Assembly (NCBI RefSeq): GCF_031458235.1 | Contig: NZ_JAVDYB010000001.1 | Span: forward strand, 6,576,501 to 6,640,500 | DNA length: 64,000 bases | From: Catenuloplanes atrovinosus | GTDB taxonomy: Bacteria > Actinomycetota > Actinomycetes > Mycobacteriales > Micromonosporaceae | Direction: 5' to 3' | In this document: positions 17,252 through 36,459 of the stretch, piece by piece | Layout of the letters: every line of letters starts with the position of its first letter | Position numbering within the stretch: the first letter of the stretch is position 1 | Made by a program: the position numbers and the translations under genes | The notes under the pieces: model-generated | The model's input: the letters and a program-made list of their open reading frames with translations, nothing else | Databases searched by the model: none | What the model was told of the DNA's origin: nothing

Positions 17252-17830
17252 GTGGACGGTCACCCTGAGGACAAGCCCGCCCCGGACACCGATGCGGATC
17301 CGTTGAGCGAGGTCGCCACCCGGCTCGGCCGGGTGGAGGAACAGCTGGCCGACTTCCACCGGCGCTCCGCGCACCGGGAGGGCGTCATCGACCGGCTGCA
17401 CGAGGAGAACCAGCGGTTCCGCGAGGGCCTTCGGCGCGTGATCCTCGAACCGATCGTCACCGATCTGTTGCGGCTCTACGACTCCATGACCCGGGAGGCC
17501 GGGCGGCTCGCCGGCACGGACGCCGGCGTCGCCCGGATGCTGGAGGGCTACGCCGACGAGACCGAGATGACGATCGAACGCTGCGGATACCAGCTGTTCC
17601 GCGCCGTTCCGGGCGAGCCGTTCCAAGCCGGGCGCCACGGACCCGCCGGCACGGTGCCCACCACCGATCCGGTCTGCGACAACACGGTCGCGGAAGCGCT
17701 CGCGGCCGGCGTGCTGGAGACCGAGACCGGCCGGGTACGCCGTCCCGCTCGCGCCCGTTTCCACCGGTACGACGCCGGCCCCACCGGCCAGCAGCGCGCT
17801 GATCACCAGTCCCACGTCGGAAGCGAGTAG
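17252..17830 (+). CDS. GrpE-like nucleotide exchange factor
   Basis: 192 residues. The N-terminal half is a coiled coil (LSEVATRLGRVEEQLADFHR, RLHEENQRFREGLRR). A GrpE-like stretch follows: ILEPIVTDLLRLYDSM, ARMLEGYADETEMTIERCGY and a small beta region at EPFQAGRHGPAGTVPTTDP. It would release ADP from an Hsp70. The Hsp70 gene begins six bases after its stop, so it very likely serves that specialised Hsp70 and not the housekeeping DnaK. It starts with GTG at 17252 and is the first gene of the ten-gene array. Confidence 0.8.
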   Translation: MDGHPEDKPAPDTDADPLSEVATRLGRVEEQLADFHRRSAHREGVIDRLHEENQRFREGLRRVILEPIVTDLLRLYDSMTREAGRLAGTDAGVARMLEGYADETEMTIERCGYQLFRAVPGEPFQAGRHGPAGTVPTTDPVCDNTVAEALAAGVLETETGRVRRPARARFHRYDAGPTGQQRADHQSHVGSE

Positions 17831-17835
17831 CGGAC

Positions 17836-19440
17836 ATGACCACGTTCGGCATCGACCTCGGCACCACCTACTCCTGCGTCGCCCGCATCGACGACACCGG
17901 ACGACCGGAGATCATCAAGAACGCGGTCGGCGACGACACCACCCCGTCCGTCGTCTTCTTCGAGCAACCGGACCACGTGGTGGTCGGCAAGGACGCGAAG
18001 GACAACGCGAAGCTGCGTCCTGACCTGGTGGTGTCGCTGATCAAGCGTCAGATGGGCCGCCAGTTCGAGGTGACCGCGCACGGTACGGCGCACACGCCCG
18101 AGTCCGTCTCCGCACTGATTCTCCGCGAGTTGGCCCGCGCCGCGAGCGAGAGCTGCGGCGAGGAGGTCCGGGACGTGGTCATCACGGTGCCGGCCTACTT
18201 CGGCGTGGCCGAGCGTGACGCCACCCGCAAGGCCGGCGCGATCGCCGGCCTGAACGTGCTGAGCATCGTGGACGAGCCGGTCGCGGCCGCGCTCCACTAC
18301 GACGCGGTCTCGTCCGGCGGCACTCGCACGCTCTTCGTCTACGACCTCGGCGGCGGCACGTTCGACACCACCGTCATCCGGGTCTCGCCGGAGGAGATCG
18401 TGGTCGTCTGCACCGACGGCGACCACCACCTCGGCGGCGCGGACTGGGACGACCGGCTCCGCGAATACCTGCTGGAGCAGTTCCTCGCCGAGCACCCCGG
18501 CTCCGCCGCGGGCGAGGACGAGGAGTTCCTCCAGGAACTCGCGAATCGGGCCGAGGACATCAAGCGCCAGCTGAGCAGCATGCAGTCGCGTCGGTGCAAT
18601 CCCGTCTTCGGCGGCGAGACCGCCAAGATCGAGGTGACCCGGGAGAAGTTGGAGGAGATCACCTCCGAGCTGCTGGAGCGCACGTTCGAGATCACCCGGC
18701 GGACGATCGAGACGGCCCGCGCGAAGGGCGTCACCGAGTTCGACGACGTGCTCCTGGTCGGCGGCTCCAGCCGGATGCCGGCGGTCGCGGCGGGGCTGCG
18801 CAAGCTCGGGCTGGAGCCGCGGATGCACGACCCCGACCTCGCCGTCGCCAAGGGCGCCGCGCAGTACGCACTGATCGAATCGATCAAGGTGCAGCTGCCG
18901 GAGGAGGGCGAGGAGGCACCGGCCGCCGCGGTCGAATCGGTCGCCGACCGGCTCAACATCTCCGTGGAGAAGGTCCGCGCGCTGGCCGGCAAGCGGGTCG
19001 CCACGGTGGTGCCGCGCGCCTTCGGCGTCAAGGTGGTCAACATCGACGGCGACACCGAGACGCACAGCATCGTGCACGTGCTCCGCGCCAACACGCCGCT
19101 GCCGGCGCGGACCGAGCCCAGCCGGTTCATGACCGCTTACCAGAACCAGGTCGAGATCCTGGTGGAGATCTGGGAGCAGTCCGGCTCCGTCGAGTCCGAC
19201 GAGGTCGAGGACAACGAGCACATCGCCGAGGGCCTGATCACCGGCCTGCCGCAGTTGCCGAAGGGTTCACCGATCGACATCACCTTCGGCATGGAGACCG
19301 ACGGGCTGCTCAAGGTGCACGCCGTCGAACTCCAGACCGGCAAGGACCTGCACATCGAGGTGCAGATCAAGGGTGGGCTGTCGGACGAGCAGGTGGCCGA
19401 GGCCCGGACCTCCGTAGCCCGCTACAGCGTCTCCGCGTGA
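17836..19440 (+). CDS. Hsp70/DnaK-type chaperone lacking the helical lid
   Basis: 534 residues, shorter than a normal DnaK (about 610-640). The ATPase domain is complete: GIDLGTTYS (5-13), DLGGGTFD (170-177) and VGGSSRMPAV. The substrate domain keeps the beta part (PRAFGVKVVN, TPLPARTEPSRFMTAYQNQ, LPKGSPIDITF) but ends soon after SVARYSVSA, so the C-terminal lid helices are missing. A charged linker (PEEGEEAP) joins the parts. It is probably a dedicated chaperone or ATP-dependent switch of this locus, paired with the GrpE-like protein upstream and the large FN3-like protein 13 bases downstream. Confidence 0.9.
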   Translation: MTTFGIDLGTTYSCVARIDDTGRPEIIKNAVGDDTTPSVVFFEQPDHVVVGKDAKDNAKLRPDLVVSLIKRQMGRQFEVTAHGTAHTPESVSALILRELARAASESCGEEVRDVVITVPAYFGVAERDATRKAGAIAGLNVLSIVDEPVAAALHYDAVSSGGTRTLFVYDLGGGTFDTTVIRVSPEEIVVVCTDGDHHLGGADWDDRLREYLLEQFLAEHPGSAAGEDEEFLQELANRAEDIKRQLSSMQSRRCNPVFGGETAKIEVTREKLEEITSELLERTFEITRRTIETARAKGVTEFDDVLLVGGSSRMPAVAAGLRKLGLEPRMHDPDLAVAKGAAQYALIESIKVQLPEEGEEAPAAAVESVADRLNISVEKVRALAGKRVATVVPRAFGVKVVNIDGDTETHSIVHVLRANTPLPARTEPSRFMTAYQNQVEILVEIWEQSGSVESDEVEDNEHIAEGLITGLPQLPKGSPIDITFGMETDGLLKVHAVELQTGKDLHIEVQIKGGLSDEQVAEARTSVARYSVSA

Positions 19441-19453
19441 GAAACGGCGAACC

Positions 19454-22093
19454 ATGTTCGACCAGGACGAATACCGCCGGACGGTGCTCGATCCGGCGCG
19501 CGCCGACCGGAACACGCCGCCGGCGGACCTCTTCCTCCGGTACGCGATGGCGGCCGACCGCCCGCCTCGTACCGAGCAGTTCACCGCACACGTCGAGGCG
19601 GTCGCGAAGTACTGGCAGTCGCTGACACAGCGGATCGCGTACCGCCGGCTGGCCGAGACGCTGCTGGTCGCGCACCGAACCCTGCGGCAGGCCGGCAAGC
19701 TCACGCTGGAGCACTTCGCGGCCGAACGCGACCGCTGGACCGCCGAGATCGGCCGCAAGCTGGAGGAGGCGGTCGACGACCTCGCCGCGGCCGGGCCGGT
19801 GGTCTTCGCCGAGCACGTCGCCGCGGTCGCCGCGAGGCTCGGCGGCGCAACCGCGGAGGCGGGCCTGCGGGACCACCTACGCCGCCGCCGGGTGCGCGTC
19901 GTCGACGAGTTGTGGCCGCTCCCGGCCGGGCCACACCCGAAGAGCCGCGACCTTCAGGCCGCCACGACGATGCTCGGGCTGAGGCTGTCGATCGACGCGG
20001 TCGCCGGTGAGGAGCGGGTACGGCAGGGCTTCACGCTCCGCCGGGGCCTGTGCGTCGGCGGAGCGCCGTTGACCGGCGCGCAGATCCGCGAGGCGAAGAG
20101 CAGAGCGGAACGCCGCGCGCAGGACGAGCGCAAGACCGCCACGGACAACGTGCTCACCATCCTCCAGAACGCGGAACAGGACGGGACGCTCGGCGCGCTC
20201 GTGCTGTGGGAGTTGCTGGAGGCGGTCCGGCCCGCGGCCGAGTTGCCCGGGGCGACGGTACGGCGGGTGGCCCGCGAGGCGGCCCAACTCGGCCTGGACC
20301 GCGACGAGGCGGACGAACTCGCGCTGGCCGTGCTGGCAGCGGGCCGGGACAGCGGCTCCCGGCGTGGCCCGGCCGCCGAGGTCGAGGCGCTGCTCGGCTC
20401 CGGAGCGCTGCGCGCCGCTCAGCGGCTGCTCACCTCGCTTCCCGCGGAGGCGGCCGGCGACCTGCCGGACCGGATACGGGAGGTGGCCGCCCGGGTCTCC
20501 GATCTGGCGGCCCGCGCCCATACCGAGGCCGCGGCCGGTCGCACCGAGCACGCCGCCGAGCTGCTCGTCGCCGCGACGCGCGAGGCGAGCGACGACACCG
20601 ACCTGGCCGGCCGGCTGAGGGCGCTCGCTCCACCACCGCCGCCCTCGGTCCGGGCCGGTGCCGTCATGGATCGGGTCAGCGTCGGATGGGACCCGAGCCC
20701 GGCTCGTACCGGTGGCATCTCGTATCAGGTGGTCCGCACGCGCGGCCGGGCGGCGGGTGCCGCGGCCGACGGGGACGTGGTCGGGGGTACGGAGAGCAAC
20801 GAGATCGTCGACCGGGCCCCGCCCGCCGGAGACGACCTCTGGTACACGGTCTTCGCCCGGCGCGCGGACGGCGCCTGGTCCGCCGGTGCCTCCACCGGGC
20901 CCGTCACGCTGCTGCCGGACGTCACCGCGCTCACCGCCACCGCCGGGGAGACCGACGTTCGGGTGACGTGGACGGTGCGGTCCGACGCCACCGGCGTCGC
21001 CGTGACGCGCCTGCCCGGCGGTGCGCGCGTCCCCGAGGTGGCCCGGACCGGGTTCGCCGAGAAGGGGCTGCCCTCCGGGCGGGAGTGCCGGTACCTGGTG
21101 CGCGTGGTCTACGCCGGGGCCGGCGGCACCCCGGTGACCTCGCCGGGCGTCACGGTCACCGTCACGCCGCAACCGCCTCCGGCCGAGGTGCGTGACCTGG
21201 CGGTCGTGCCGCTGCCCGGCCAGAGCGCCGATCGGCTGCGGCTGGCCTGGACGCGCCCGCCCGGGGGCGAGGTCGTGCTGAGGTCCGCGCCGCACCGGCC
21301 GCGCTGGCAGCCCGGAGCCGAGCTCGCCGCGACGGAGCTGAGCACGTACGGCGACGAGTTGACCGGGCACGTCGAGCTCGGGCCGGACGGGCGGGACGGG
21401 CTCACGGTACGCGCGCCGAGCGGGCGCGTCTTCGTGACCGCGTTCAGCACCGGCGCCGGGCGTGCGATCTGCGGGCCCACCATCGCGGTCACGAACACCG
21501 CGCCGGTCACGAACCTGCGCGCCCGCCGGGTCGGTCCCCGGGCGCGGCTGAGCTGGGAGTGGCCCGATGGCGTCGGGCTGGCCCGGGTGCGCTGGTGGCC
21601 GTCGGACGCGCCGGACCGGGTCAGAGAGTCGGACTGCTGGGCTCGCGCCTACCGCGACGACGGCGGATTCGAGATCGCCGTGGGCGTCGGCGCCGCGTTC
21701 GTCTCCGTCGCCACGGTCGGTCACGGGCCGGACGAGGAGAGCGTGGGCACGCCGGTCACCATCCGCGTGGCCGGCGTGGGAGTGCGCGTCACCTACCGGT
21801 TCGAGCAGCGCCGGCTGCCGCGCCGCACCCGCATCGTGCTCACCAGCGAACAGACCTGCGAACTGCCGGAGCTGATCGTGGTGCGCACCGAGGGCCGGGT
21901 GGCGCCGCTGCGCGCGGACCAGGGCACGACCGTCGCCCGGGTGCCGTCCCAGCGCCTCGAGCCGGGCCGCCCGCTCGCCATGGACGTGGCCGCGGGCGGC
22001 GGGCGGGGGCCGTACCGGCTGGGTTGTTTCATCGACGACCGCGGCGGCCCCGGGTCGGACGTGGTCCTGACCGGCACCCCGGGAGGGTACTGA
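19454..22093 (+). CDS. Large FN3-like protein of unknown function coupled to the Hsp70
   Basis: 879 residues. Residues 1-250 are helical and rich in Arg and Glu. Residues 250-400 are Ala-rich helices that may form repeats. From about 405 come several beta-sandwich units of the fibronectin type III kind: VRAGAVMDRVSVGWDPSP, LTATAGETDVRVTWTV, RDLAVVPLPGQSADRLRLAW and VTNLRARRVGPRARLSWEWP. There is no signal peptide, so it is cytoplasmic. FN3-like arrays usually bind proteins, so it may be the client or scaffold of the adjacent lidless Hsp70. I recognise no enzyme domain. The ATG at 19454 is 13 bases after the Hsp70 stop, with GAGAAACGG as a weak ribosome site. Confidence 0.65.
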   Translation: MFDQDEYRRTVLDPARADRNTPPADLFLRYAMAADRPPRTEQFTAHVEAVAKYWQSLTQRIAYRRLAETLLVAHRTLRQAGKLTLEHFAAERDRWTAEIGRKLEEAVDDLAAAGPVVFAEHVAAVAARLGGATAEAGLRDHLRRRRVRVVDELWPLPAGPHPKSRDLQAATTMLGLRLSIDAVAGEERVRQGFTLRRGLCVGGAPLTGAQIREAKSRAERRAQDERKTATDNVLTILQNAEQDGTLGALVLWELLEAVRPAAELPGATVRRVAREAAQLGLDRDEADELALAVLAAGRDSGSRRGPAAEVEALLGSGALRAAQRLLTSLPAEAAGDLPDRIREVAARVSDLAARAHTEAAAGRTEHAAELLVAATREASDDTDLAGRLRALAPPPPPSVRAGAVMDRVSVGWDPSPARTGGISYQVVRTRGRAAGAAADGDVVGGTESNEIVDRAPPAGDDLWYTVFARRADGAWSAGASTGPVTLLPDVTALTATAGETDVRVTWTVRSDATGVAVTRLPGGARVPEVARTGFAEKGLPSGRECRYLVRVVYAGAGGTPVTSPGVTVTVTPQPPPAEVRDLAVVPLPGQSADRLRLAWTRPPGGEVVLRSAPHRPRWQPGAELAATELSTYGDELTGHVELGPDGRDGLTVRAPSGRVFVTAFSTGAGRAICGPTIAVTNTAPVTNLRARRVGPRARLSWEWPDGVGLARVRWWPSDAPDRVRESDCWARAYRDDGGFEIAVGVGAAFVSVATVGHGPDEESVGTPVTIRVAGVGVRVTYRFEQRRLPRRTRIVLTSEQTCELPELIVVRTEGRVAPLRADQGTTVARVPSQRLEPGRPLAMDVAAGGGRGPYRLGCFIDDRGGPGSDVVLTGTPGGY

Positions 22094-22096
22094 CCG

Positions 22097-23287
22097 ATGG
22101 CGAAGGTGACCTGTCCTTACTGCTACGCCACCTATCCGGAGAAGGAGATCACGTTTCGCTGCGGCGGCCTCGCCGCGCCGGACGGCCGCCAGTGCCAGCC
22201 GCGTCGCGACCCGGTCCGGGAACGCCTCGGCGACGGCGCCTCGCTGCCGCCCGCGGTCGGCGGCAACGGCCGCAAGCTCACGGCGACCTGCCAGGAGTGC
22301 CGCAACGTCACCACGATCCAGATATGCCCCCGATGCCACGCCCAGCTGCCGGTGCACTACAGCAAGATCAATAACCGGATGGTGGCGATGATCGGCGCGA
22401 AGTTCAGCGGCAAGTCGGTCTACACCACCGTGCTGCTGCACGAGTTGCGGCACCGGGTCGGCCGGCGGTTCAACGCCGCGGTGATCGGTGCGGACGAGCG
22501 CACCCGCCGCGACTTCGGTGCCGAGGAGCGGACGCTCTACGCCGAGGGCGTGCTGCCGGCGACCACCGTGACCGGCGCCACCGGCGTCGGCCGGGAGCCG
22601 TTCGTGTTCAAGTTCTCGCTCGGCGAGCGCCGGCGCTTCCGCAACACGCTGCGGCACACGGTGCTCTCGTTCTTCGACACCGCCGGCGAGGACCTCGAGT
22701 CGGAGCAGGGCATCGCGCAGAACGTGCGATACCTCAGCAGCGCGGACGGCATCATCGTGCTGCTCGACCCGCTGACCATCCCCGGCGTGGTGGACAGCCT
22801 CGGCCTCCACCCGTCGGTACGCCCGCAGGGCACCCAGGCGGACAGCCCGATCAACATCCTGAGCCGGGTCACCGAGGTGTTGCAGAAGGTGCCGGGCGTC
22901 GGGCCGCATCGCATGATCAGCATCCCGGTCGCGATCGCGTTCTCCAAGGTGGACGCGCTCTGGGACGCGCTGCCCGCGGACAGCCCGCTGCGCCAGCCGT
23001 CGCCGGACACCCCGTACTTCGACGAGCGCGACAGCGCCGCCACGCACGCGTACGTCCAGGCCCTGCTCCACGAGTGGGAGGGCGGCCAGATCGACCAGCT
23101 CCTGGCCAAGCACTACCGCCGGTACCGGTACTTCGGCCTCTCCGCGCTCGGTGCCGTACCGCCCGCCAGGGCTCCGGGTGAGGCCCGGCAGAAGGTGGCG
23201 ACCTCGGGCATCCAACCGCACCGCGTGGAGGACCCGTTCCTGTGGCTGCTGAGCCGGCTCAACGTCATCGAGACAGGAAAGGACTGA
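22097..23287 (+). CDS. Zinc-ribbon GTPase (DO-GTPase type), soluble
   Basis: 396 residues. The N-terminus has CxxC zinc knuckles (C6/C9, C65/C68, C77/C80). The GTPase domain follows: G1 GAKFSGKS (100-107), G3 DTAGED (195-200) and a G4-like SKVD (284-287). This is the double-GTPase group I know from predicted bacterial conflict systems, where two GTPases are encoded around a GAP1 protein. The gene begins three bases after the FN3 gene and ends one base before the GAP1-like gene, so all are co-translated. It has no membrane segment, unlike the second GTPase at 25697. GTP binding is well supported; the trigger is unknown. Confidence 0.8.
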   Translation: MAKVTCPYCYATYPEKEITFRCGGLAAPDGRQCQPRRDPVRERLGDGASLPPAVGGNGRKLTATCQECRNVTTIQICPRCHAQLPVHYSKINNRMVAMIGAKFSGKSVYTTVLLHELRHRVGRRFNAAVIGADERTRRDFGAEERTLYAEGVLPATTVTGATGVGREPFVFKFSLGERRRFRNTLRHTVLSFFDTAGEDLESEQGIAQNVRYLSSADGIIVLLDPLTIPGVVDSLGLHPSVRPQGTQADSPINILSRVTEVLQKVPGVGPHRMISIPVAIAFSKVDALWDALPADSPLRQPSPDTPYFDERDSAATHAYVQALLHEWEGGQIDQLLAKHYRRYRYFGLSALGAVPPARAPGEARQKVATSGIQPHRVEDPFLWLLSRLNVIETGKD

Positions 23288-23288
23288 G

Positions 23289-25664
23289 ATGGGCGTGCCG
23301 CAGATGTACTACACCTCCTGCGAGAACGGCCTGGCCGGCTACCCCGGCTTCCAGTTCAACGCCGCCACACCCGGCATCGGCGACGCGGTGCTGCGCCGCG
23401 TCGAACAGGACACCTCGTACGAGCCGCCACGCTCGCTCGGATACCAGCCCACCGAGGCCCAGATCGACGACTGCCCGGTGAACCTCTGCTATCTGCCCGG
23501 CGGCGGCGGTGAACCGGCGATCCTGGCCCGCACGGTATTCGTCGGCACGGACTACTCGCAGCGGTACGGCAACTACTTCACCCACGCGCTCGCCGTCCGG
23601 TCCACGGAACGAGACCTCGGGGGCGCACTGCCGATCGAGTTCTGGCGCGCCGCGTTCTGGGCCCGCGACGAGGCCGCCGGCACCGGCCTGCCCGAGCTGG
23701 ACCCGGTGCCGACGGGCAGCTTCGGGCGCGCCGCCGCGGACGCGTTTCTGCACTCCAGCGGGCGGATGGGCTGGCTGCCCCGGTTGTTGACGGCGGTGGA
23801 GCGGGCGATCGTCGCCGGCGAGCGGTCCGTCGTGCTGGTGGCGCCGGACAGCGAGCAGGTGGCCCGATGGATCGCCACGGTCTGCCACCTGCTGCCGCCC
23901 TCGATGAGCCGGGAGCTGTCCTTCGCCACGTACAGCTACCGACCCGGCCGCAGCCGCCAGCACCTGGTGGGCACCGTGCCGGAGACCGAGTTCACCGTGG
24001 ACGACAACACGCTGCGCGGCCACTTCCTGTTCGACGTCGTCGGCGGGCACGCCAGCGAGTTGCCCACGCACCCGCTGGCGGAGCTGCTGGCCGCCGCCGG
24101 GGCGGAGGGGGCACGTACCGTGTGGTCCCTGGCCGAGCCCTTCACCACCGGCGCCGAGCGGACCTTCGACGACTGGTACGCGCCCGCGGTCGCCGGCACG
24201 ATCCGCGGCGGCCTGCCGGTCAGCGACGAGGATCTCCAGGCCGCCATCCGCCTGATCGAGAACGGCGGCGCCCGGCTCCGCCCCGACCTGGTCGCCGACC
24301 TCGCCGACCACTGCCTGGACCACGACGCGATCACGGTCGCCCACTGCCACGCGCTGGCCGAGGCGGCCTCGGCCGCGGGTGACGACGGCCTGCGCGCGGC
24401 GGCGGAGACCCGAGCGTTCGATGTGCTGGTCGCCGCGCCCGCCGGCGCCGGACCGGTACCGCGCCCGAGGACACCCGCCGGGCAGCGGCACGCGGCCCGC
24501 GTGCTGACCGCCGGGCTCGCCCGGGCCACCGACGGCCGCGCCGCCCTGCCGCTGCTCGCGGTGGCCGTCGACGCCCGGATCGACATCTCCGCCGGCGACC
24601 TGGAGCGGTATGCCCGCGAGCTGCTCGCCCCGATGGTTCTGTCGGACCCCGGCACCGACCCCGACGGCCGGCTCACCCGCCTGCTCCGCGATCTGCCGGA
24701 CCTGCGCCGCGGTCTGTTCGGTGCGCTCGCCGACGCGCTTCCCGGCCGGGAGCCGGCGGTCGTGGCGGCCGCGGCCCGGTTGGTCTCCACCGCGCCCGAC
24801 GAGGAGTTGCGCACCTATCCGAGGCTGCGCCGCGTGCTGCTGCTCGCCCGCTCCGCGGACGCACCGGAGACCCGCGTACCTACGCTGCTGCGGCTCTGCG
24901 AGACGGAGGTACCGGACGACGTGCTGCTGACCGCGCTGTGGCCGGACGGGTGGGGGCTGGGCGACGCGGCCGGCATCATCGCGGAGGCGCCGTCGGACGC
25001 GTGGGAGTCGGACGCGATGGTGGAACGCGTCGACCAGCTACTGCGCCGATCCGAGATGCCCGGGCCCGAGGAGTGGGCGGCGTACACCGCGGTCTGCCGG
25101 TTCGCCACCGGCGAGACCCTCTCCGGACGGCTGTCCATGGCCGCGGATCGGCTGGCCGTCTCGTACACCCGGGCCCGCCACCTGGCCAGGCGCGGCAGCC
25201 GGGAGCACGGCACGGAACTGGCGGGCGTGGTGCGGGCCGCGCTCCGCCTCCACGACGACGCCGATCCGATCACTCGCCGCTATCTGACGAACAACGTGTA
25301 CACGATGCTTCTCCGGCTGGAGCCGAAGGCGCTGGCCGAGTTGCTGCCGCGGACCCCGGAGCCGATCCGTGACCGGTTCACCGACCGCGCCGCCACCATG
25401 CTGCGGGATCGGGCTCCGGACCAGTCCCTGGCCGCGGCGCTGTTCGAGGCGCGAATGCTGCTGGCCAAGCGGGAGCCGCGGATCACGGCCGAGATCGACC
25501 GGCTGCTGGCGGACACCGTGGCCCGCTGGCGCTCGCGAGACCTCGAAGGCCTGGAGAAATGGCTGGCCGGCGGGCCCAAGGGCGCCGTCGCCTACTACGC
25601 GGGCTGGCGGGAGGCGAACGTACGGCGCGGTATCGGGCGCCTCTTCCCCCGCTGGCGGCCCTGA
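23289..25664 (+). CDS. GTPase-associated protein 1 (GAP1)-like
   Basis: 791 residues. The N-terminus MYYTSCENGLAGYPGFQFNA, then the YGNYFTHALAV and IEFWRAAFW stretches, is typical of the GAP1-N2 domain. The long helical middle and C-terminus fit the GAP1-M and GAP1-C parts. GAP1 proteins are named for their constant association with the DO-GTPases and are thought to act as their partner or regulator, with no enzymatic activity shown. Here it sits exactly between the two GTPase genes. The ATG at 23289 overlaps the preceding stop context (TGAG ATG). No membrane or catalytic motif is seen. Confidence 0.75.
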   Translation: MGVPQMYYTSCENGLAGYPGFQFNAATPGIGDAVLRRVEQDTSYEPPRSLGYQPTEAQIDDCPVNLCYLPGGGGEPAILARTVFVGTDYSQRYGNYFTHALAVRSTERDLGGALPIEFWRAAFWARDEAAGTGLPELDPVPTGSFGRAAADAFLHSSGRMGWLPRLLTAVERAIVAGERSVVLVAPDSEQVARWIATVCHLLPPSMSRELSFATYSYRPGRSRQHLVGTVPETEFTVDDNTLRGHFLFDVVGGHASELPTHPLAELLAAAGAEGARTVWSLAEPFTTGAERTFDDWYAPAVAGTIRGGLPVSDEDLQAAIRLIENGGARLRPDLVADLADHCLDHDAITVAHCHALAEAASAAGDDGLRAAAETRAFDVLVAAPAGAGPVPRPRTPAGQRHAARVLTAGLARATDGRAALPLLAVAVDARIDISAGDLERYARELLAPMVLSDPGTDPDGRLTRLLRDLPDLRRGLFGALADALPGREPAVVAAAARLVSTAPDEELRTYPRLRRVLLLARSADAPETRVPTLLRLCETEVPDDVLLTALWPDGWGLGDAAGIIAEAPSDAWESDAMVERVDQLLRRSEMPGPEEWAAYTAVCRFATGETLSGRLSMAADRLAVSYTRARHLARRGSREHGTELAGVVRAALRLHDDADPITRRYLTNNVYTMLLRLEPKALAELLPRTPEPIRDRFTDRAATMLRDRAPDQSLAAALFEARMLLAKREPRITAEIDRLLADTVARWRSRDLEGLEKWLAGGPKGAVAYYAGWREANVRRGIGRLFPRWRP

Positions 25665-25696
25665 AGCGATCCCCGCCCCGTCCCGAGGAGGCGCGC

Positions 25697-27390: not shown

Positions 27391-27394
27391 CGCC

Positions 27395-28546: not shown

Positions 28547-31182
28547 GTACCGCCGTGGAGGAGACGCTACGGCGGTGCGGCGAGATCGCGCTCGCGGTCA
28601 GCGGCCACGGTGACCTGGACGCCGCCCTGGCGTGCTATCTCGGTCTGCCGCCGGATCTGCCCGGCCGGCCGCGGTTCGCGGCCGCCCTGGTCGCGGCGCT
28701 GGTGCGGGAGCCGACCGTCGCACCGGCCCGGATGCGGCAGCTCGAGGCGTTGCTGGCCGCCGCCGACGCGGACCCTCCGGCGGCCCCGTCCTGGCCGGCG
28801 GTGCGCGCCGTCGCCGGTGCCGTGTCACTGACGTACGCCGCCGCCGAGGGCCGCGTCGATCCGCGCGCCGCGCTGGCGGACGTCGAACGGCTGGCGGAGC
28901 AGGCGGGCGGGTCACCGCTCTTCGAGACGAGCCGGATGGGTTTGCGTTATGTGGCCGCGGCCGCGGACGGCGACGCCTCCGCGCACCGTCGCATGACGGA
29001 CGAGCTCACCGCGCTCTGGAAGGCGTCCGGGGCGGCGGCCAAGGACGACGGCGGTGTCCTCGAGGTGCTCGACTCCGTCGCCGCCCTGCTGGAGACCCAG
29101 CGGCGCGGCGAGGTACCCGACGCACCGCTGAGCCGGCTACGCACCGCGGTGCAGCGGCTGCCGGAGGGCCATCCGATGCGGCAGGCCGCCACCGAGGCGT
29201 ACGAGATGGCGTCCGCGCTGAGCGGCGGCGGCCCGATGCCGTCGATGGCCACTCACGAGGAGGACCTGCCGGACGCCGAGCGCGCGCTGCGCCACGGCTA
29301 CGAGGCGATGAGACTGCTCGGCCGGGGCGACGAGACCGACCTCGGCAAGGTCGAGGCCGGCATAGAACACCTGCGGATGGCCGTCCGGTTGACTCCGGCC
29401 GGCCATTCCCGGCGCCCGTTCCACCTGGCCTCGATCGCGCTGGGCCTCTACCGCGGCTGCGAACTGCGCAACGATCCCACCGGGCTGGAAGAGGCGCGAG
29501 GGCTGCTGGAGGAGGCGCGAGACCTGGCCGGCGGTCCCGCGCACCCGCAGTGGTCCTGGATCAACGACATGCTGTCCGGCATCGAGCAGCGGCTCGGTGG
29601 CGCACAGCGCTCGCGGCGCACCGCGCTGGAAGGGCTGCGCGGGCATGCGTACCAGGTGCTGCTGCAAACGGATCTCACCTCCGCCACGTCCGCCGCGGCC
29701 GACGCCGCCCGGGACGCGGCGGACACCGCCCGCTGGTGCCTGCGCGACAACGCGCCGGCCGATGCGATCACCGCACTGGACGCCGGGCGCGGTCTGGCGC
29801 TGTTCGCCGCCACCGAACTCGGCACGATCCCGGACCGCATGCGCGCCGCCGGCCGGGACGACCTCGCCGACCGGTGGGATGCCGGCCTCGCCGCCGGCGA
29901 ACCGGACCGGCTGCCGACCTCGCTCCGCCGAGAGGCCCTGGACGTGCTGGCCGCTCAGGACGTACCGGCGCTGCTCGACCCGCCGGACCTGGACGAGATC
30001 CGTGCCGCGCTGCGGACGCAGGACGCCGACGCGCTGGTCTACCTCATGCCCGGCGGCCAGGGCCTCCCCGGTCATGCGGTGATCGCGCCGGTCGACGGCC
30101 CGCCGGCCTTCCTGACCCTGCCCAACCTGCTACCGGCCGACGTGGACGTCGAGTCCTACCTGGCGCTGTCCGCCCGGGGCCCGCGCGACATGGACGCGGC
30201 CGACGACGAACGGTTCGCCGGCAGCCTGGACGCGCTCTGCCGGTGGGCGTGGCGGGCGGCGATGGGGCCGCTGGTCAACCGCTATCTACTGCCTCGCTTC
30301 TCCGGCCGGTCGCGCGGGCGCCCGCCGCGCGTGGTGCTGGTGCCGATCGGGGACCTCGCCCGCATCCCGTGGCAGGCGGCCCGGCGCCCGGACGGCACGT
30401 ACGTCGTGCAGCTGATCGGGGTCTCCCAGGCGGTCTCCGCGCGGATGATGTGCCACACCGCCGCGCTTGCCCCGGTGACCCCCACGCCGACCGGCCTGTT
30501 CGTCGGCGACCCGGCCACCGGGGACCCGAGGGACGACCTTCCCGCGGCCCGCGCGGAGGCCTATGCGGTCCGGCGCGTGTTCTATTCCGGTGCCCGATAC
30601 GTCGGCCGCCGCCCCGACGGCACGGTCAGCCCTTCCGGACCCGGCACCGCCGACCAGGTGCGCGGCTGGCTGCGCACCGGCGGTCCGGCGGCCGGCAGCA
30701 CGCTCCATCTGGCCTGTCACGGCTTCACCTCGGCGACGCCCGGTGCTGAGCTGTCGTACCTGATGCTGGCCGGGGGCGACCGGCTGACCGCGCAGTCGCT
30801 GGGCGCGGTCATGTCCCGGGCACCCGACCGGGCCGTCGGGCTCGTGGTGCTGGCGGCGTGCCGCAGCGGCGTCGCCATCAGCGGGTACGACGAGGCGTAC
30901 AGCCTCGGTACCGCGTTCCTGGCCGCGGGGGCCCGCTCGGTGCTCTCCACGCAGTGGAACATCCCGGACGGCGCCACGTCCGTGCTGATGTTCATGTTCC
31001 ACCACTACCTGATGGCCGAGCGCCTGCCGGTCTGGGACGCGCTGCGCCGGGCCCAGCTGTGGATGCTCGACCCGGGCCGGATCGCGCCGGCCCGCATGCC
31101 CGACAGCCTGCGCGCCGAACTCGCCGGCGCCGACCCGGCCGACGTGGTGGCCTGGGCCGGCTTCCTCCACTGGGGACGGTGA
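28543..31182 (+). CDS. TPR-CHAT caspase-like protease
   Basis: About 879 residues. The first 400 are helical TPR-like repeats. The C-terminal CHAT domain belongs to the caspase clan: the catalytic histidine lies in LHLACHGF and the catalytic cysteine in LAACRSG (codons at 30718 and 30859). They are followed by the typical LGTAFLAAGARSVLSTQWNI and a VWDALRRAQ helix. CHAT proteases act as executioners in several immune systems, including the gasdermin and Craspase-type systems. The start is GTG, 28540 or 28543; 28543 gives a GTGA overlap with the TerD gene. It is followed at once by an inactive paralogue. Confidence 0.85.
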   Translation: MSTAVEETLRRCGEIALAVSGHGDLDAALACYLGLPPDLPGRPRFAAALVAALVREPTVAPARMRQLEALLAAADADPPAAPSWPAVRAVAGAVSLTYAAAEGRVDPRAALADVERLAEQAGGSPLFETSRMGLRYVAAAADGDASAHRRMTDELTALWKASGAAAKDDGGVLEVLDSVAALLETQRRGEVPDAPLSRLRTAVQRLPEGHPMRQAATEAYEMASALSGGGPMPSMATHEEDLPDAERALRHGYEAMRLLGRGDETDLGKVEAGIEHLRMAVRLTPAGHSRRPFHLASIALGLYRGCELRNDPTGLEEARGLLEEARDLAGGPAHPQWSWINDMLSGIEQRLGGAQRSRRTALEGLRGHAYQVLLQTDLTSATSAAADAARDAADTARWCLRDNAPADAITALDAGRGLALFAATELGTIPDRMRAAGRDDLADRWDAGLAAGEPDRLPTSLRREALDVLAAQDVPALLDPPDLDEIRAALRTQDADALVYLMPGGQGLPGHAVIAPVDGPPAFLTLPNLLPADVDVESYLALSARGPRDMDAADDERFAGSLDALCRWAWRAAMGPLVNRYLLPRFSGRSRGRPPRVVLVPIGDLARIPWQAARRPDGTYVVQLIGVSQAVSARMMCHTAALAPVTPTPTGLFVGDPATGDPRDDLPAARAEAYAVRRVFYSGARYVGRRPDGTVSPSGPGTADQVRGWLRTGGPAAGSTLHLACHGFTSATPGAELSYLMLAGGDRLTAQSLGAVMSRAPDRAVGLVVLAACRSGVAISGYDEAYSLGTAFLAAGARSVLSTQWNIPDGATSVLMFMFHHYLMAERLPVWDALRRAQLWMLDPGRIAPARMPDSLRAELAGADPADVVAWAGFLHWGR

Positions 31183-33095
31183 CGGTGAGCGACCACGACC
31201 TCGCACGTCTGCGCGCCGAACTCGACCGGCTGACCGGCCCGGCCCGCGCGCAGACGCTGCACGACCTGACCCGCGCGCACACCAACCGATTCTGGCGGGC
31301 CGGCCCCGGACGCGCGGACGCCCGCCCCGACCTGGACGCGGCGATCGCCGCGGCCACCGAGACGTACGGCTGGTTCCGTCCCGGCGACGCGCTGCGACCG
31401 CAGATCGCGTCCCAGCTCGGCTGGCTGCTGGCGACCCGCCACCTGGCCTACGGCACCCCCGCGGAGGATCGGGAGACCGGCATCGCGCGCCTCGTCGAGG
31501 CGCTCGAGTCACCGACGCTGCCGCCCATGATGCGCCAGCAGGCGCGCCTCTGGCTCGGCCAGCTCTACCTTCGGCGCACGCTCGGCGGCCTCGGCGACAT
31601 CGGCGGCGCGATGATCGGTCTCGTCGGCCGTCCCGGCTCGGACCGCGCCGGCAACGCGCGGGCCGCCGCCGGCTGCTTCCGGCAGGTGCTCGCGGAGCCG
31701 GAGATGAGCGGAGAGATCACCGCCGCGGCGGAGTCGCTGCTCGGGATCGCGGAGTCCCTGCTGGCGCTGGGCGAGGGCCGGTTGCGTGGCCTCGGCGGCA
31801 TCCGGAAGGCGGCCGCGGGCCTGCGGAGGCTGCACGAACAGAGCCAGGTCGCCACCCGGGGGCCGATCCTGTTCCAGGGTTCCCGGCTGGCGGCGATGGA
31901 CCCGCTGGACCGGCCGGTGATGCTGGTCGGCTCCACCGAGCCGGATACGGCGGCGCCGCGCCGCCCCGCGGCACGCCCCGCCGCCGCGCCGGCCGACCCG
32001 CGCGCTGCGGTCCGGCAGCGCCTGTCCGCCGGCGACGACCCGTTCCCGGTGCTCGCCCCGATGCTGGACCGCGACGCGCCCCGGCCGGACGTGGGCCTCG
32101 CCGACGATCTGACGGCACTCGCCACGACAGCCCTGCACTCGGGAACGGCCGGCCCCGACGACCACCTGCTGCTGGCCGCGGCGCTGTGGCTGCGGGCCCG
32201 TGCCGACGAGGGCACCGCGGCGGACGAGGACACGGAGGCCGCGCTCGACAGCCTCAGCGCCGCCGCGGCCGGCATCGCCGGCCTGCCCGTACCGGCCGTC
32301 CCGGTGCTGTTCCGGATGCTGGTGCTGCTCGGTGACCGGGATCCGGCCGGGCACCTGCCCCGGGCACTCGCCCCGATCGTCTCGGCGCTGCGAGCGGTCG
32401 GGGCCGACGCGCTGGCCGTTCCGGAGGCGGGCGGGGTGCTGCTGCACGCGGCGGACGGGCGGGCGATGACGGCCGGGGTGCGCGCGCTTCCCCGACGGGT
32501 CCTGATGATCGGCGACACGCCACCCACCGGCGCGCTGAGCATGGTGTCCACGGTGGCAGGTCCGGCACAGGTGATCATGCTCGCCGGGCGGCCCCGGCGA
32601 CGCCTCGACGAGCGCCCGGTGATCCTCGCCGGTCCCGCCGGCGATCCCGCGCTGCTGCGCGCGTTCTACCCGCACGCGACCGTGCTCGACGCGGGCGGTG
32701 ACCGGCGTTCCTCGGCGGAGGCGTCGATGCTGCACGTCGGCGACGCGGCCGTGACCGTGCCGGACCGCACCGGCGCCGGTGGTGGGCTGGTCGTGCTGCC
32801 GCCCTCCGCCCGTTTCCCGGCGCTCGCGGACGCGTTCCTGGCCGCGGGCTTCTCCGGCGCGGTCGGCTGGCTGCGGCCGGTGCCGGACCGGGCCGCCGTC
32901 GCCGTGACCGCGGCACTGCACGCACACCTCACGCTGTGGGGGCGGGAACCGGCCGCGGCGGTGTTCGCGGTGCGCCGCTGGCTGCGAAGCCCGGAGCGGG
33001 CGGCCGTACCGCACCTTCCGGTCACGCTCGCCGCCGCGCTCGACGCCGCGGGACCGCGTGATCTCGCCGACTCGCTGGTCCACCGGGGCGTGTGA
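31179..33095 (+). CDS. TPR protein with a degenerate CHAT-like C-terminus
   Basis: 638 residues starting at a GTG that overlaps the CHAT gene stop as GTGA. The N-terminal half has TPR-like helices (ALRPQIASQLGWLLATRHLA, MMRQQARLWLGQLYLRRTL). The C-terminal part follows the CHAT fold: FLAAGFSGAVGWLRPVPDRA and AAVFAVRRWLRS align with FLAAGARSVLSTQW and VWDALRRAQ of the upstream protease. The ACHG and AACRSG catalytic motifs are absent; the equivalent strand reads GGGLVVLPPSARF. It is therefore best read as a pseudoprotease that could regulate or bait the active CHAT protein. The gene ends seven bases before the convergent caspase fragment. Confidence 0.65.
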   Translation: MTVSDHDLARLRAELDRLTGPARAQTLHDLTRAHTNRFWRAGPGRADARPDLDAAIAAATETYGWFRPGDALRPQIASQLGWLLATRHLAYGTPAEDRETGIARLVEALESPTLPPMMRQQARLWLGQLYLRRTLGGLGDIGGAMIGLVGRPGSDRAGNARAAAGCFRQVLAEPEMSGEITAAAESLLGIAESLLALGEGRLRGLGGIRKAAAGLRRLHEQSQVATRGPILFQGSRLAAMDPLDRPVMLVGSTEPDTAAPRRPAARPAAAPADPRAAVRQRLSAGDDPFPVLAPMLDRDAPRPDVGLADDLTALATTALHSGTAGPDDHLLLAAALWLRARADEGTAADEDTEAALDSLSAAAAGIAGLPVPAVPVLFRMLVLLGDRDPAGHLPRALAPIVSALRAVGADALAVPEAGGVLLHAADGRAMTAGVRALPRRVLMIGDTPPTGALSMVSTVAGPAQVIMLAGRPRRRLDERPVILAGPAGDPALLRAFYPHATVLDAGGDRRSSAEASMLHVGDAAVTVPDRTGAGGGLVVLPPSARFPALADAFLAAGFSGAVGWLRPVPDRAAVAVTAALHAHLTLWGREPAAAVFAVRRWLRSPERAAVPHLPVTLAAALDAAGPRDLADSLVHRGV

Positions 33096-33102
33096 GGGCC
33101 GG

Positions 33103-33956
33103 TCAGCCCGGGATCACGGTCTCGATCGGCAGCACCAGCGCGGCCCAGTCGTACGCACGCCCCGGTTCCGCCTCGTCCATCTCGCGGTGCACCGCCCGCC
33201 GGCCGAGGCGGTCCAGCAGACCGTCCAGTCCGTTCACGTCCCGTGCCGCGGTCACATCCTCCCCGAGCGGCGGCATCGCGAACGCCGACGCACCGAACTG
33301 CTCCTCCGCCACGAGCAGCTTCAGCCAGTCCCGGCTGCGGCCGCCCGGAACCAGCGGTGCGGACCTCGGCAGCCCCACCCGGATCGGCCCGCCCCGAACC
33401 GCCCACGCGATCTCGCCCGGGTCGACGAAGTCGCCGGGAAACAGTCGCGCGTGGATCCGGTAGTTGCCGGAGAGGTTCAGCAGCACACAGTAGAGCCGTT
33501 TCCCGCGCCGGTTCCGCAACCGCACGTGGATCTGCGGTGCCACCCATGCCCCGTCACGCCGGGCGTACTCCAGCCGATAGCACCCTTCCCGTGCCAGGAG
33601 CGCCGGCGCGTCCGGATCAGGCCGGCGCCCCGGAACGGCCGCGACCAGCGACACCGAGACCGCACCGGCGAGCGTGCTGCCCGGATTGTCCAACGCCAGC
33701 ACCTGACGCCACCCGGCCACGTGCTCCAGCCGCCGGACCATCCGGGTCGCGCCGTCGCCGTCGATGTCCCGGATCTCGTCGCCGATCGGCGCACCGTCCG
33801 GGCCGAGGAGCCGGGCGCGGCCCCGCCGGGTGGCCACCCGCAACTCGGGCACGGTGCCCGGGCCGGCCGGCCGCACGTGCGGGGACGGCCCGCCGCCCGG
33901 CCCGGCGGTGCCGATCGCGGCCGTCAGCCGCGCGCGGTACCGGCGTGGTCCTCCCC
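33103..33956 (-). pseudogene. C-terminal domain of the caspase-like protein, in the -1 frame
   Basis: This open frame continues the caspase-like protein after a shift at the GGGG run (33953-33956). It encodes a beta-rich domain (RLEHVAGWRQVLALDNPGST, WVAPQIHVRLRNRRGKRLYC, LLNLSGNYRIHARLFPGDF) that is normally fused to the caspase domain in actinobacterial caspase-family proteins. It has no good start of its own; the first GTG is at 33876. Adding one G to the run would join both parts into one protein of about 655 residues. It may be a real mutation, a sequencing error or a programmed -1 frameshift. Confidence 0.65.
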
Positions 33957-35069
33957 GCGCCCGCCGATCGCGACCACGGTGGCGGGCAGTTCCACCCGGG
34001 AGAGCACCACGTCGTACTGCCGCTCCCGGTCGGGCTCCCAGCCGAGCGGAACGACCAGGCTGCGTTCGGCGAGCACGCGCGCCACGCGCGCCTCCCGCGA
34101 CGGGTCGCCGTGCACGGCGACGCGCAGCACGTCCGCGCCGTCCGGCACCGGCCGAAGACCGTGGCAGGCGCCCGCATCCAGCTCCCAGCCCTCGGCCGCG
34201 TATCGGATGATCATGCCGGTCCCCACGGAGGTGACCGCGCCGCCGAGGAACGGCGCGTCGGCGAGCCCGGGAAGATCGGGATAGAGCTGGGGGACCTGCC
34301 GGTACGCGTACAGTTCCACCTCGGCCCGCGCCGCGACCAGCAGTTGCCGGTACGTCGCGGTGCCGCCCAGCCGGTTCAGCGCGCGCAGCAGCGCCCAGCT
34401 GAACAGCCCGCGAGGCGCGCCGTCCAGCCACCGCTCCTCGGCCAGTTCGAAGCGGCGAGCGGCGGCCAGCGCCACGTGCTCCGCCGCGGACCGGCCCACC
34501 GCCGAGAACGGCCGCCCGCCCAACTCGGGCAGGAGGGTGCCGGGCAGGTCCCGGACGCTTCCGGCGGGAAGCGCGCGGACGCGTACCCCCGGTTCGGCCT
34601 TCTCCCGCGCACTCCGGGTGGCGCCGCCGCTGTGGCAACCGTCCAACACGACCGCCACGTGCGCGCCGCGCTCCGCCAGGTCGTCGAGCAGCAACGACAG
34701 TTCCTTGTCCAGCAGGTCCGGGACTCCGCCGGTACGGCTGTCCGCGCACACCAGCGTCTGCATGGTGGGCCCGGCCTCGACATGTCTCAGCTCGGGCGGC
34801 GCCTCGGCCTCCGAGCCGTGCCCGGAGAACCAGAACAGTGCGGTGTCGCCGGGCCCGGCACGGCCGAGGTGGTGCCGGAGCCCGTCGATGACTGCGGCCC
34901 GGGTGGCGTCGTCGTCGTACAGTTCGCGGATCTCCGGCCGGCGCCCGCCCGCGCGGCCGCGCAGCACCGCCGCCGCGGCCACCACGTCGTTGCGAGCGCC
35001 GGCGAGCCGCGCCCACCGGCCCATCCGGTAGGTATCGATGCCCACGAGCAACGCGTACAGCACGCTCAT
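33924..35069 (-). CDS. Caspase-like (metacaspase) protease domain protein
   Basis: 381 residues. The peptidase C14 domain is clear: YALLVGIDTY at the N-terminus, the catalytic histidine H84 in FWFSGHGSE and the catalytic cysteine C145 in VVLDGCHSGG, each after a hydrophobic strand. The frame ends in RGEDHAGTARG just after a GGGG run, where the family would continue into the beta domain encoded at 33103. The ATG at 35069 overlaps the stop of the cyclase-like gene (ATGA), so the two are translated together. Metacaspase-like proteases cleave after Arg, Lys or Asp and often execute cell death. The protease half is intact. Confidence 0.85.
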   Translation of the reverse strand: MSVLYALLVGIDTYRMGRWARLAGARNDVVAAAAVLRGRAGGRRPEIRELYDDDATRAAVIDGLRHHLGRAGPGDTALFWFSGHGSEAEAPPELRHVEAGPTMQTLVCADSRTGGVPDLLDKELSLLLDDLAERGAHVAVVLDGCHSGGATRSAREKAEPGVRVRALPAGSVRDLPGTLLPELGGRPFSAVGRSAAEHVALAAARRFELAEERWLDGAPRGLFSWALLRALNRLGGTATYRQLLVAARAEVELYAYRQVPQLYPDLPGLADAPFLGGAVTSVGTGMIIRYAAEGWELDAGACHGLRPVPDGADVLRVAVHGDPSREARVARVLAERSLVVPLGWEPDRERQYDVVLSRVELPATVVAIGGRGEDHAGTARG

Positions 35070-36316
35070 CGCGGCGCGCCGACGTGGACCCAGCAGTGTT
35101 CGAGGAAGTCCTTGTCCGGCAGGTCCACGACGGCGGGGCTGAAGTCGCCGGCTCCCGGCGGTTCCGCCGAGTGCGCTATCACGTCGCGGTAGAGCACGTC
35201 CGGCACACCGAGCACGAAATCCGCGGCCGGATGGTCACGGATCGCGTCGTGCAGCGGCCGGCTGTCCAGAATCCGGTGCACCGCGATCGGGGCCACGCCG
35301 ACCCAGCCGTTCGCACCCGGCTCGACCAGCCCCCGGTGCAGCGCGACCCGGACCCTGATCCGCTCGGACGGCACCGTGCGCAGCCCACGCGCGAGCCCGC
35401 CGACGAGGCGGGGGATGACCACGGCCTCGTCGATGCCGAGCGGCAGGACGGTGAACTGCCCGTCGCCCTGCGGCTGCGGCTCGACCTCCGACTCCGCGAT
35501 CCCGGCCGTCTCCCGCGCGCCGCGCAACACGTCGACCAGTTCCCGCTGAACACGCCGCGTCTGGTCGGTGCGCCGGGCGCTGTACCCGACGACGTCCGCC
35601 GCCATGCACAGCCGCACCGTACGCCGCCCGTTCATCGGCGGCGCACCGGTCCGCTCCGCGAACGGCACCGCGTCGCCGAGCACCCCGTCGAACCCGGCGT
35701 CCGTACGGATCTGCACGTCCAGCGTGCCGGAGACCTCGGCCAGGTCAGGCGGGATCTCCAGCAACGCATGCATCCCGTACGAGCGCGACGCCAGCCGCTC
35801 ACCCCGGCCCGCGTGGTACGTCCAGCCGAAGTGCGGGGCGAGCAGCCCGGAGGCGAAGACCCGCGGTGCGCCGCGCCGTCTCATCAGCCGGTCCAGCCAG
35901 CCGCGCCGGTCCCGCGCCGCCTCCACCGTCCGGGACGCGAAGTCGGAGCTGGGCGCCACCTGCCGGCGGTCCTCCCAGAAAAGCCCGAGCGCGTCACCGT
36001 CCGCGTGCACGTCGACCGCGACGACCCGGGAATCCGACATGGCGACCGAGAAGCGCGCCATGGTGATCCGCGACCGTCCGGGCGGCTCCTCCAGGTCGAA
36101 CGCCAGTAACATCCCCGCGTACCGGGTGCCGGTCGCCGCCGCCCGCCGCCGCAGATGAGCCGGCAGATCGCCCACCGGCACCGGATAGATCAGCGGACGT
36201 CCACATCGCACCCGGGACAGCCGCGCCCCCGCCCCGTTCCCCGGATCCCGCCCGGACGGCTCCCTGATCACCCGCTCCGCGATCACCCACTCCGCGCCGA
36301 GTGCCACCGGCTCCAC
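35066..36316 (-). CDS. Protein with class III cyclase-like C-terminal domain
   Basis: 416 residues from a GTG at 36316, preceded by the strong site GGAGGTGAC. The first 250 residues have no family I recognise. The C-terminal 160 follow the nucleotide cyclase homology fold: VRLCMAADVVGYS (beta1 with D in place), RVQRELVDVLRGA, VEPQPQGDGQFTVLP (the GDG turn) and IRVRVALHRGLVEP. Several catalytic positions are uncertain, so it may be a degenerate cyclase that senses or binds. It is the first gene of a two-gene operon with the caspase-like protease and shares ATGA with it. This pairing suggests a sensor upstream of the protease. Confidence 0.6.
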   Translation of the reverse strand: MEPVALGAEWVIAERVIREPSGRDPGNGAGARLSRVRCGRPLIYPVPVGDLPAHLRRRAAATGTRYAGMLLAFDLEEPPGRSRITMARFSVAMSDSRVVAVDVHADGDALGLFWEDRRQVAPSSDFASRTVEAARDRRGWLDRLMRRRGAPRVFASGLLAPHFGWTYHAGRGERLASRSYGMHALLEIPPDLAEVSGTLDVQIRTDAGFDGVLGDAVPFAERTGAPPMNGRRTVRLCMAADVVGYSARRTDQTRRVQRELVDVLRGARETAGIAESEVEPQPQGDGQFTVLPLGIDEAVVIPRLVGGLARGLRTVPSERIRVRVALHRGLVEPGANGWVGVAPIAVHRILDSRPLHDAIRDHPAADFVLGVPDVLYRDVIAHSAEPPGAGDFSPAVVDLPDKDFLEHCWVHVGAPR

Positions 36317-36459
36317 GCCGTCACCTCCCCCTCCCCCGCCTCCGCGCCAGTCTGCTCCCCACCCCGCCATCACCAGCATCGGAACAACAGCCGACGCCGC
36401 CGCCCGTCCGGCCCACCCACTCCGGGCACGACTCACCCGCGGTGGTGAACAATCCCCTC

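Follow-up and report, generated by a model that had tools for sequence, protein, structure and literature searches.

A chaperone, GTPase and protease island in Catenuloplanes atrovinosus as a possible self-destruction or growth-arrest system

The window analyzed here is a stretch of 64,000 nucleotides from Catenuloplanes atrovinosus (Micromonosporaceae; assembly GCF_031458235.1, contig NZ_JAVDYB010000001.1, positions 6,576,501 to 6,640,500), the host genome being a single contig of 8.9 Mb. Within this window, an island carries ten closely spaced plus-strand genes (g1 to g10) that face three minus-strand open reading frames (ORFs; g11 to g13). Judged by its domains, the core of the island is a member of the GAP1-N2 systems described by Kaur et al. 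2020 (PMC7159879), in their HSP70 theme. To this core the island adds a CHAT protease with a catalytically dead CHAT twin, a caspase-cyclase pair, a TerD-like protein and a peptide with a single transmembrane (TM) helix, none of which the main text of that paper was found to give for GAP1-N2 systems. We tentatively read the island as an inducible self-destruction or growth-arrest system, a reading to which we give slightly less than an even chance.

The original prediction for this stretch described ten tightly packed plus-strand genes, and these were borne out between 17252 and 33095 by a codon-position GC bias like that of real genes and by the agreement of an independent codon-usage caller. 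The spacings from g1 to g10 are, in order, +5, +13, +3, +1, +32 (+29 if g6 starts earlier), -4, +4, -7 and -4 bases. The facing cyclase-like and caspase pair was also present, with a third minus-strand ORF (g13) having been overlooked; the codon-usage caller placed the three from 36316 down to 33103. The gap between the two convergent operons, from the end of g10 to g13, is 7 bases.

Most of the predicted core labels held. The GAP1 protein g5 scored 141, 100 and 143 bits for GAP1-N2, GAP1-M and GAP1-C, each over its Pfam cut-off, and the Hsp70 g2 and the membrane GTPase g6 passed theirs as well (for g6, DO-GTPase2 with a cut-off of 27 bits). The TM helices of g6 are hydrophobic N-terminal stretches read from the sequence, and g2 would lack the Hsp70 lid, as suggested by its length. 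The zinc-ribbon GTPase g4 and the GrpE-like g1 were found in place, but their model scores stayed below the cut-offs. In g4, CxxC pairs and GxxxxGKS were read from the sequence, and clustering tied it to the g6 homologues; g1 missed the GrpE cut-offs in both libraries (Pfam E 0.001, NCBIfam E 2.9e-5). As for the FN3-like label of g3, Pfam fn3 hits five of the 17 sequences in its family alignment and gives no hit in the window protein. The identity of g8 as a double TerD is only likely, because its structural model is poor (mean predicted local distance difference test score (pLDDT) 55.8, predicted template modelling score 0.41) despite a match to Streptomyces coelicolor TerD 3ibz (probability 1.00), the sole PDB fold match under E 0.001. 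Its Pfam TerD score was 16.1 bits against a cut-off of 25.3 (E 0.008), and no TerD was obtained for g8 in the whole-genome search.

These core domains place the locus, as had been proposed, among the GTPase-centric systems described by Kaur, Burroughs, Iyer and Aravind. In PMC7159879, GAP1-N2 double-GTPase systems were predicted to combine one GTPase with a zinc ribbon, one with TM helices and a GAP1-N2/M/C protein, and a second theme, in about 14% of GAP1-N2 neighbourhoods, adds HSP70 and GrpE, the FNIII protein being there a fusion with DnaJ or TPR. With the systems described there the island has in common the double-GTPases, the three GAP1 domains, HSP70, GrpE, variable neighbours and probably the FNIII protein. 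Since this theme is already described, the suggestion that the GrpE/Hsp70/FN3 module might be a new version was not sustained. The original prediction had further assigned TerD, CHAT and caspase to the published scheme along with the paired GTPases and GAP1; the latter two agree, but in the main text of PMC7159879 CHAT is not mentioned, TerD appears once, in another system, and caspase is named for GAP1-N1 systems, with none named in the section on GAP1-N2 systems. The small TM peptide did not turn up there either, in a comparison that took in the main text but not the details of figures or the source data. A role in biological conflict is likewise a prediction of PMC7159879. The openly licensed papers searched, in abstracts and passages and without supplements, including PMC8195603, PMC10907252 and PMC11237479, yielded no treatment of CHAT, dead CHAT or the caspase-cyclase pair in GAP1-N2 systems. 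In the papers searched neither experimental support for immunity nor any experimental follow-up of GTPase-centred systems was found; three papers turned up that name parts of these systems, one of them unrelated.

The two CHAT proteins form a pair, one presumably active and one presumably inactive. Both catalytic motifs, HLACHG and LAACRS, are present in g9. Pfam CHAT was barely passed by g10 (24.5 bits against 24, over 61 residues only), and profile comparison with g9 aligned 170 columns, in which nothing in g10 corresponds to the CHG and AAC stretches of g9. Neither motif occurs in any of 21 long dead CHATs, and both occur in 44 of 49 active-type CHATs, the other five failing the first pattern. 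By its motifs, g10 is thus classed as a catalytically dead CHAT. The predicted TPR-CHAT and TPR-pseudoCHAT labels were right as to CHAT and dead CHAT, but Pfam detected no TPR repeats in g9 or g10. Dead CHATs had a same-strand CHAT within 4 kb in 26 of 27 cases. Among 296 sampled genomes of the class, the dead-CHAT model was matched in 13, two in the family and 11 outside it; the outside matches cover at most 114 of 617 positions, and no full-length dead CHAT was found outside the family in this sample.

The caspase g11 keeps intact catalytic His and Cys motifs (SGHG and DGCHSG), and g13 corresponds to its C-terminal domain, the two being fused in one protein of 586-669 residues in 11 of 11 relative ORFs (three of which are the same gene under a second locus identifier). 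When ten proteins were scanned with the PADLOC models of known anti-phage systems, g11 matched the caspase model, g9 matched BovA weakly (E 0.0091), and the other eight had no match. The third protein, g12, has no Pfam match. In its model, built from 27 sequences, the C-terminal half matches adenylyl and guanylyl cyclases in the PDB (best 4yut, E 2.2e-6; others Rv1264 and Ma1120). Residues D241, D285 and R348 are invariant in 27 of 27 aligned sequences, and no Asn stands four residues before R348, these positions being assigned by eye. We take D241 and D285 to be the metal Asp residues, R348 the Arg, and the place before it that of the transition-state Asn of class III enzymes. For g9 and g12, no solved structure was found by sequence.

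The association of this protease set with GAP1-N2 was surveyed in 354 genomes of the family Micromonosporaceae. Profiles of the dead CHAT, the caspase C-terminal domain and the cyclase-like protein were searched with the best three, seven and five candidates per genome retained, so that the counts are lower bounds, and linkage may be hidden at places near contig ends. We used 60 of 65 caspase matches (five under 42 bits were dropped), 32 cyclase places over 290 bits among the matches listed, and 53 dead-CHAT places, weaker matches and second fragments being dropped. Of the 60 caspase places, 17 had GAP1-N2 within 30 kb, compared with 0.23 expected for random places in 9.5-Mb genomes, and 25 of the 32 cyclase places had a caspase within 4 kb. 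Among the matches listed, the full set of caspase, cyclase and dead CHAT was GAP1-N2-linked at ten places and unlinked at four, and caspase with dead CHAT at six and three; caspase with cyclase was linked at none and unlinked at 11, and caspase alone was linked at one and unlinked at 25. Since the scoring had stopped at three dead-CHAT candidates in each genome, the unlinked places were also annotated locally. Among 62 caspase ORFs (two split genes counted twice each; G203:C50, with its caspase beyond the fetched DNA, left out), those with a dead CHAT within 9 kb were GAP1-linked in 15 cases and not in seven, and those without in three and 37, respectively (Fisher 9.4e-7, relatedness ignored).

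When dead CHAT and caspase are immediate neighbours they are convergent in 11 of 11 cases, at -7 to +72 bp, all in GAP1-linked loci; the two are apart by one to three genes in three linked loci and in six unlinked loci that have both. Adjacent cyclase and caspase genes are on the same strand in 25 of 25 pairs, with a 4-base overlap in 23. The layout of active CHAT and caspase follows no single rule, since their immediate neighbours are codirectional in nine cases, divergent in three and convergent in two. On a caspase tree (n=59), the GAP1 label requires seven changes, at least five of them forced by well supported branches, and the GAP1 link has therefore been made or lost repeatedly. The position of the set also varies: in the window it lies downstream of the core, but in loci L177-L180 it is found upstream of GrpE.

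The caspase has a second partner as well. In 11 loci it adjoins a conserved AAA+ operon (L158:12825-17316 and ten similar loci; PF00004, 108 bits in L158) that encodes an AAA+ ATPase of about 520 residues and proteins of about 590 and 181 residues without Pfam match. None of these 11 loci has GAP1-N2 within 30 kb or a dead CHAT in the DNA fetched; nine have the cyclase and nine have CHAT, and in the latter nine the caspase and CHAT are codirectional with overlaps of 4-8 bases.

GAP1-N2 itself matched in 54 of the 354 family genomes, at 57 places, one below the cut-off. Corynebacterium glutamicum, which served as a control in this search, also gave a GAP1-N2 match, which makes it a laboratory model for the core. 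Core loci were taken as up to 20 kb around 56 places plus the window. Among these 57 loci, 46 have two GTPases, 40 Hsp70, 35 both Hsp70 and GrpE, and 51 the FN3 protein. CHAT lies inside the fetched stretch in 16, all of which have Hsp70 (Fisher 0.0012, relatedness ignored). The gene order recurs in other genomes of the family, and the sequences did not give the lack of conserved co-occurrence that the original prediction had named as refuting it. A search with the whole gene order gave 3 of 150 with GAP1, the window's own included. The TerD-like g8 is present in 3 of the 57 loci; strong homologues occur in only 3 of the 54 GAP1-N2 genomes (window's included), in all three inside the GAP1 locus.

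In 42 of 46 loci the gene after the second GTPase encodes a small TM peptide; counted over all loci analyzed, 43 of 56 have one. These peptides have 35 to about 99 residues and one hydrophobic stretch, mostly after a Y/H-R-x-x-R-like motif, and the rule, used on other genes that had room, gave 9 of 202 as background. No p-value is attached to this excess, because the peptides were already known when the rule was framed and because the loci are related to one another. In the window, the start of g7 overlaps the stop of the g6 GTPase by 4 bases, and the peptide may be a subunit of the membrane GTPase.

The boundaries of the island were indicated by a same-genus genome, G153 (L220), in which only 226 bp separate the matches to the left flank of the window, 14120-16932, and to the gene at 36472-36973, the second of them inverted; beyond the inverted match come 4.3 kb of other DNA and then 36983-38590. 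Searches by tblastn found no island genes at this G153 site, and the genome carries another GAP1-N2 locus elsewhere. The absence of 16933-36471 at a rearranged but matching site suggests that both operons were gained or lost together. Among the remaining three genomes of the genus, G151 matches the right flank only, and G150 and G152 have no close copy of the right-flank gene. Altogether, the 30-kb linkage, the dead-CHAT correlation, the convergent pairs and this joint absence make the facing caspase operon look like a part of the unit, as had been proposed.

Table 1. Features of the island in window coordinates, with the principal evidence for each
Feature	Position	Strand	Evidence or remark
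Island	16933-36471		19.5 kb; absent at matching place in same-genus genome G153 (blastn, tblastn)
g1 GrpE-like nucleotide exchange factor	17252-17830	+	GrpE models below cut-off; homologues before Hsp70 in 35/57 loci
g2 Hsp70, 534 aa	17836-19440	+	PF00012 338 bits
g3 FN3-type repeat protein	19454-22093	+	homologue in 51/57 loci; Pfam fn3 in 5/17 members
g4 zinc-ribbon double-GTPase	22097-23287	+	PF19993 18.4 bits (below cut-off); clusters with g6 homologues
g5 GAP1 (N2, M, C domains)	23289-25664	+	PF20013, PF20014, PF20052 all over cut-off
g6 membrane double-GTPase	25697-27232 (start may be 25694)	+	PF19993 59.3 bits; hydrophobic N-terminal stretches
g7 single-TM peptide, 53 aa	27229-27390	+	comparable peptide in 42/46 loci having second GTPase
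g8 TerD-like protein (likely), optional	27395-28546	+	3ibz fold match E 1.8e-5 on poor model
g9 CHAT protease	28540-31182	+	PF12770 157.6 bits; both catalytic motifs
g10 putative dead CHAT (pseudo-protease)	31179-33095	+	hhalign to CHAT probability 96%, E 3.8e-9; motifs absent
g13 caspase C-terminal domain, separate ORF	33103-33876	-	tblastn with relatives' fused caspases; alignment
g11 caspase	33924-35069	-	PF00656 58.4 bits; PADLOC caspase E 5.4e-26; SGHG + DGCHSG
g12 class III cyclase-fold protein	35066-36316	-	model mean pLDDT 88.3; cyclase PDB matches; 4-base overlap with g11

The reading of the island as a self-destruction or growth-arrest system, a candidate cell-suicide circuit, is supported because the core matches a published system, the caspase is linked to it, dead CHAT correlates with that linkage, CHAT occurs only in core loci with Hsp70, dead CHAT and caspase as well as cyclase and caspase keep their layouts as neighbours, and the tree changes are repeated. 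Further support comes from the absence of the island from G153, its patchy presence (54 of 354 genomes) and the active-site motifs in g9 and g11. The overall interpretation of the original prediction, a conflict system in which GTPases and Hsp70 set a threshold and two proteases execute, is supported in part. In the mechanism we propose, the FN3 protein together with Hsp70 and GrpE would sense an invader's or damaged protein near the membrane, and sensing would shift the paired GTPases, which would be kept at the membrane by GAP1 and the small TM peptide, to another nucleotide state. The switch would then release the CHAT protease from its dead twin, acting as regulator and adaptor, and CHAT and then the caspase would act in series, and a cut in the linker between caspase and C-terminal domain is plausible. 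As a nucleotide sensor or signal source, the cyclase-like protein, co-produced with the caspase, could set a second threshold, and TerD would be an optional accessory. As the outcome, one cell of a filament would die or turn dormant.

Several observations weigh against this interpretation. At 43 of the 60 caspase places there is no GAP1-N2 within 30 kb, so the caspase set has no need of this core, and in the six unlinked loci with both genes dead CHAT and caspase are not immediate neighbours. The caspase parts of the window are in different frames, with a longer, diverged linker that contains a stop (33876-33969); g12 may make no cyclic nucleotide, because the class III Asn, at its presumed position, seems to be missing. 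Additionally, defence genes cluster, hence linkage is no proof of one pathway, and a link of DO-GTPases to membrane stress, drawn in the text of PMC11237479, would fit a non-immune role.

The main rival explanation, which we consider unlikely yet the most serious of the alternatives, is that two adjacent systems, GAP1-N2/Hsp70 and a self-sufficient set of CHAT, dead CHAT, caspase and cyclase, are joined here only since defence genes cluster. The unlinked caspase places and the 11 loci with the AAA+ operon would fit this explanation, as would the 41 of 57 GAP1 loci without CHAT in the fetched stretch. It is weakened by the tight gene run that CHAT and dead CHAT share with the core (spacing -7 to +4), by the association of CHAT with Hsp70 loci only and by the correlation of dead CHAT with GAP1 linkage; that the set stands on either side of the core in different loci, and that all 11 immediate convergent pairs are GAP1-linked, also speak against it. 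A stress-response or developmental system, in which Hsp70 and the GTPases would signal damage to proteins or the envelope, with the proteases remodelling the cell, appears improbable. Hsp70/GrpE, the TerD-like protein and the membrane peptide would suit such a role, and PMC11237479 places DO-GTPases, in its text, with envelope-stress operons, but the patchy presence, the variable neighbours and the gain or loss of the island as a whole point to conflict systems, although they are compatible with stress too. It is very improbable that the caspase arm is decaying in this genome and the system ends at CHAT here: the frames differ, and G186 (L147:8472-10393) has a second frame split at another position, but the window's split falls at a domain boundary, in a lengthened linker, and both parts keep codon bias and aligned conserved residues with intact catalytic motifs. 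The split itself may reflect fission, decay or an assembly error.

A more speculative and rather doubtful extension of the self-destruction reading is that an obligate dead twin holds the active CHAT, and that the pair is an adaptor plugging a shared caspase-cyclase executioner into interchangeable nucleoside triphosphatase (NTPase) switches, in the manner of initiator-caspase control. One such switch would be the Hsp70/GrpE-gated double GTPases with a single-TM micropeptide subunit, and the other the AAA+ operon with a different CHAT. In animals, the inactive twin c-FLIP pairs with caspase-8, as a pseudo-caspase with a caspase. The island would resemble this, by analogy only, in that an inactive protease twin is encoded with an active one. 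If true, inactive protease twins would control bacterial death proteases, one executioner unit would be common to different NTPase switches, and cell suicide in multicellular actinomycetes would have dead-twin control, chaperone gating and a two-key threshold among its design rules. The locus is a cassette with natural boundaries; its executioners are visible, and it includes a putative pseudo-protease regulator and a small membrane peptide, so that the predicted switch becomes testable.

Likenesses to other known systems are partial. A CHAT protease under a partner's control is also found, in its published outline, in Csx29/Craspase, the type III-E CRISPR TPR-CHAT; in contrast, there are no CRISPR parts among the island genes, and the NCBIfam Csx29 score was 16.7 bits against 300. 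The EACC1-caspase system (System 4) in the main text of PMC7159879 has two genes, one with an N-terminal caspase domain and a variable C-terminal domain, and a 5' gene for single-TM EACC1; cyclase domains are also met with in that system. The caspase unit of the island is likewise of two genes with an N-terminal caspase and a C-terminal domain, but its 5' gene encodes the cyclase-fold protein and not single-TM EACC1. The VMAP vWA-MoxR ternary systems described in the same main text also couple an NTPase switch with proteases, and VMAP/MoxR/trypsin/Trypco1-type genes stand beside 9 of the 57 GAP1-N2 loci, none of them with Hsp70 (Fisher 2.7e-6, relatedness ignored; domains checked in L056 only), but none of the 13 island ORFs matches VMAP, Trypco or trypsin models.

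The surroundings of the core differ among loci. The VMAP/MoxR/trypsin/Trypco1-type genes follow Hsp70-less cores directly, on the opposite strand (L056, L058, L060, L068, L070, L072, L074, L078 and L079). A block of a ClpB-like AAA ATPase with kinase-like and vWA-like proteins, the latter two below Pfam cut-offs, follows six of the 57 loci, of HSP70/GrpE type (L073, L075, L077, L080, L081 and L088); if this is Kaur's third theme, the themes overlap in these loci. In L057, L061, L062, L065, L067, L069, L071 and L076, the small TM peptide is followed by a second Hsp70 and by a vWA protein with some 210 residues.

Searches found 0 promoters against 0.3 expected and 3 terminators against 2.2, and direct repeats in the island amounted to nothing beyond short two-copy pairs. 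Carriage by plasmid or phage was considered and rejected, with only two partial plasmid matches (22% of GAP1, 34% identity) and no phage match for CHAT. To the right of the island, a probable integrative element occupies 40000-48900 beside a transfer-messenger RNA (tmRNA) gene (48513-48883). It contains a gene for a large serine recombinase (46866-48626) that overlaps the tmRNA gene at its end, an FtsK/SpoIIIE gene (44868-46586) and GntR-like and helix-turn-helix genes, and has a GC content of 0.67-0.70, compared with 0.70-0.77 over 16-38 kb. The island is not part of this serine-recombinase/FtsK element (about 40-48.6 kb), because the amidohydrolase gene 36983-38590 lies between them and matches G153 beyond the place of the island. 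At 39034-39447, a 138-nucleotide unit is present in three tandem copies, two of them identical and one 63% alike.

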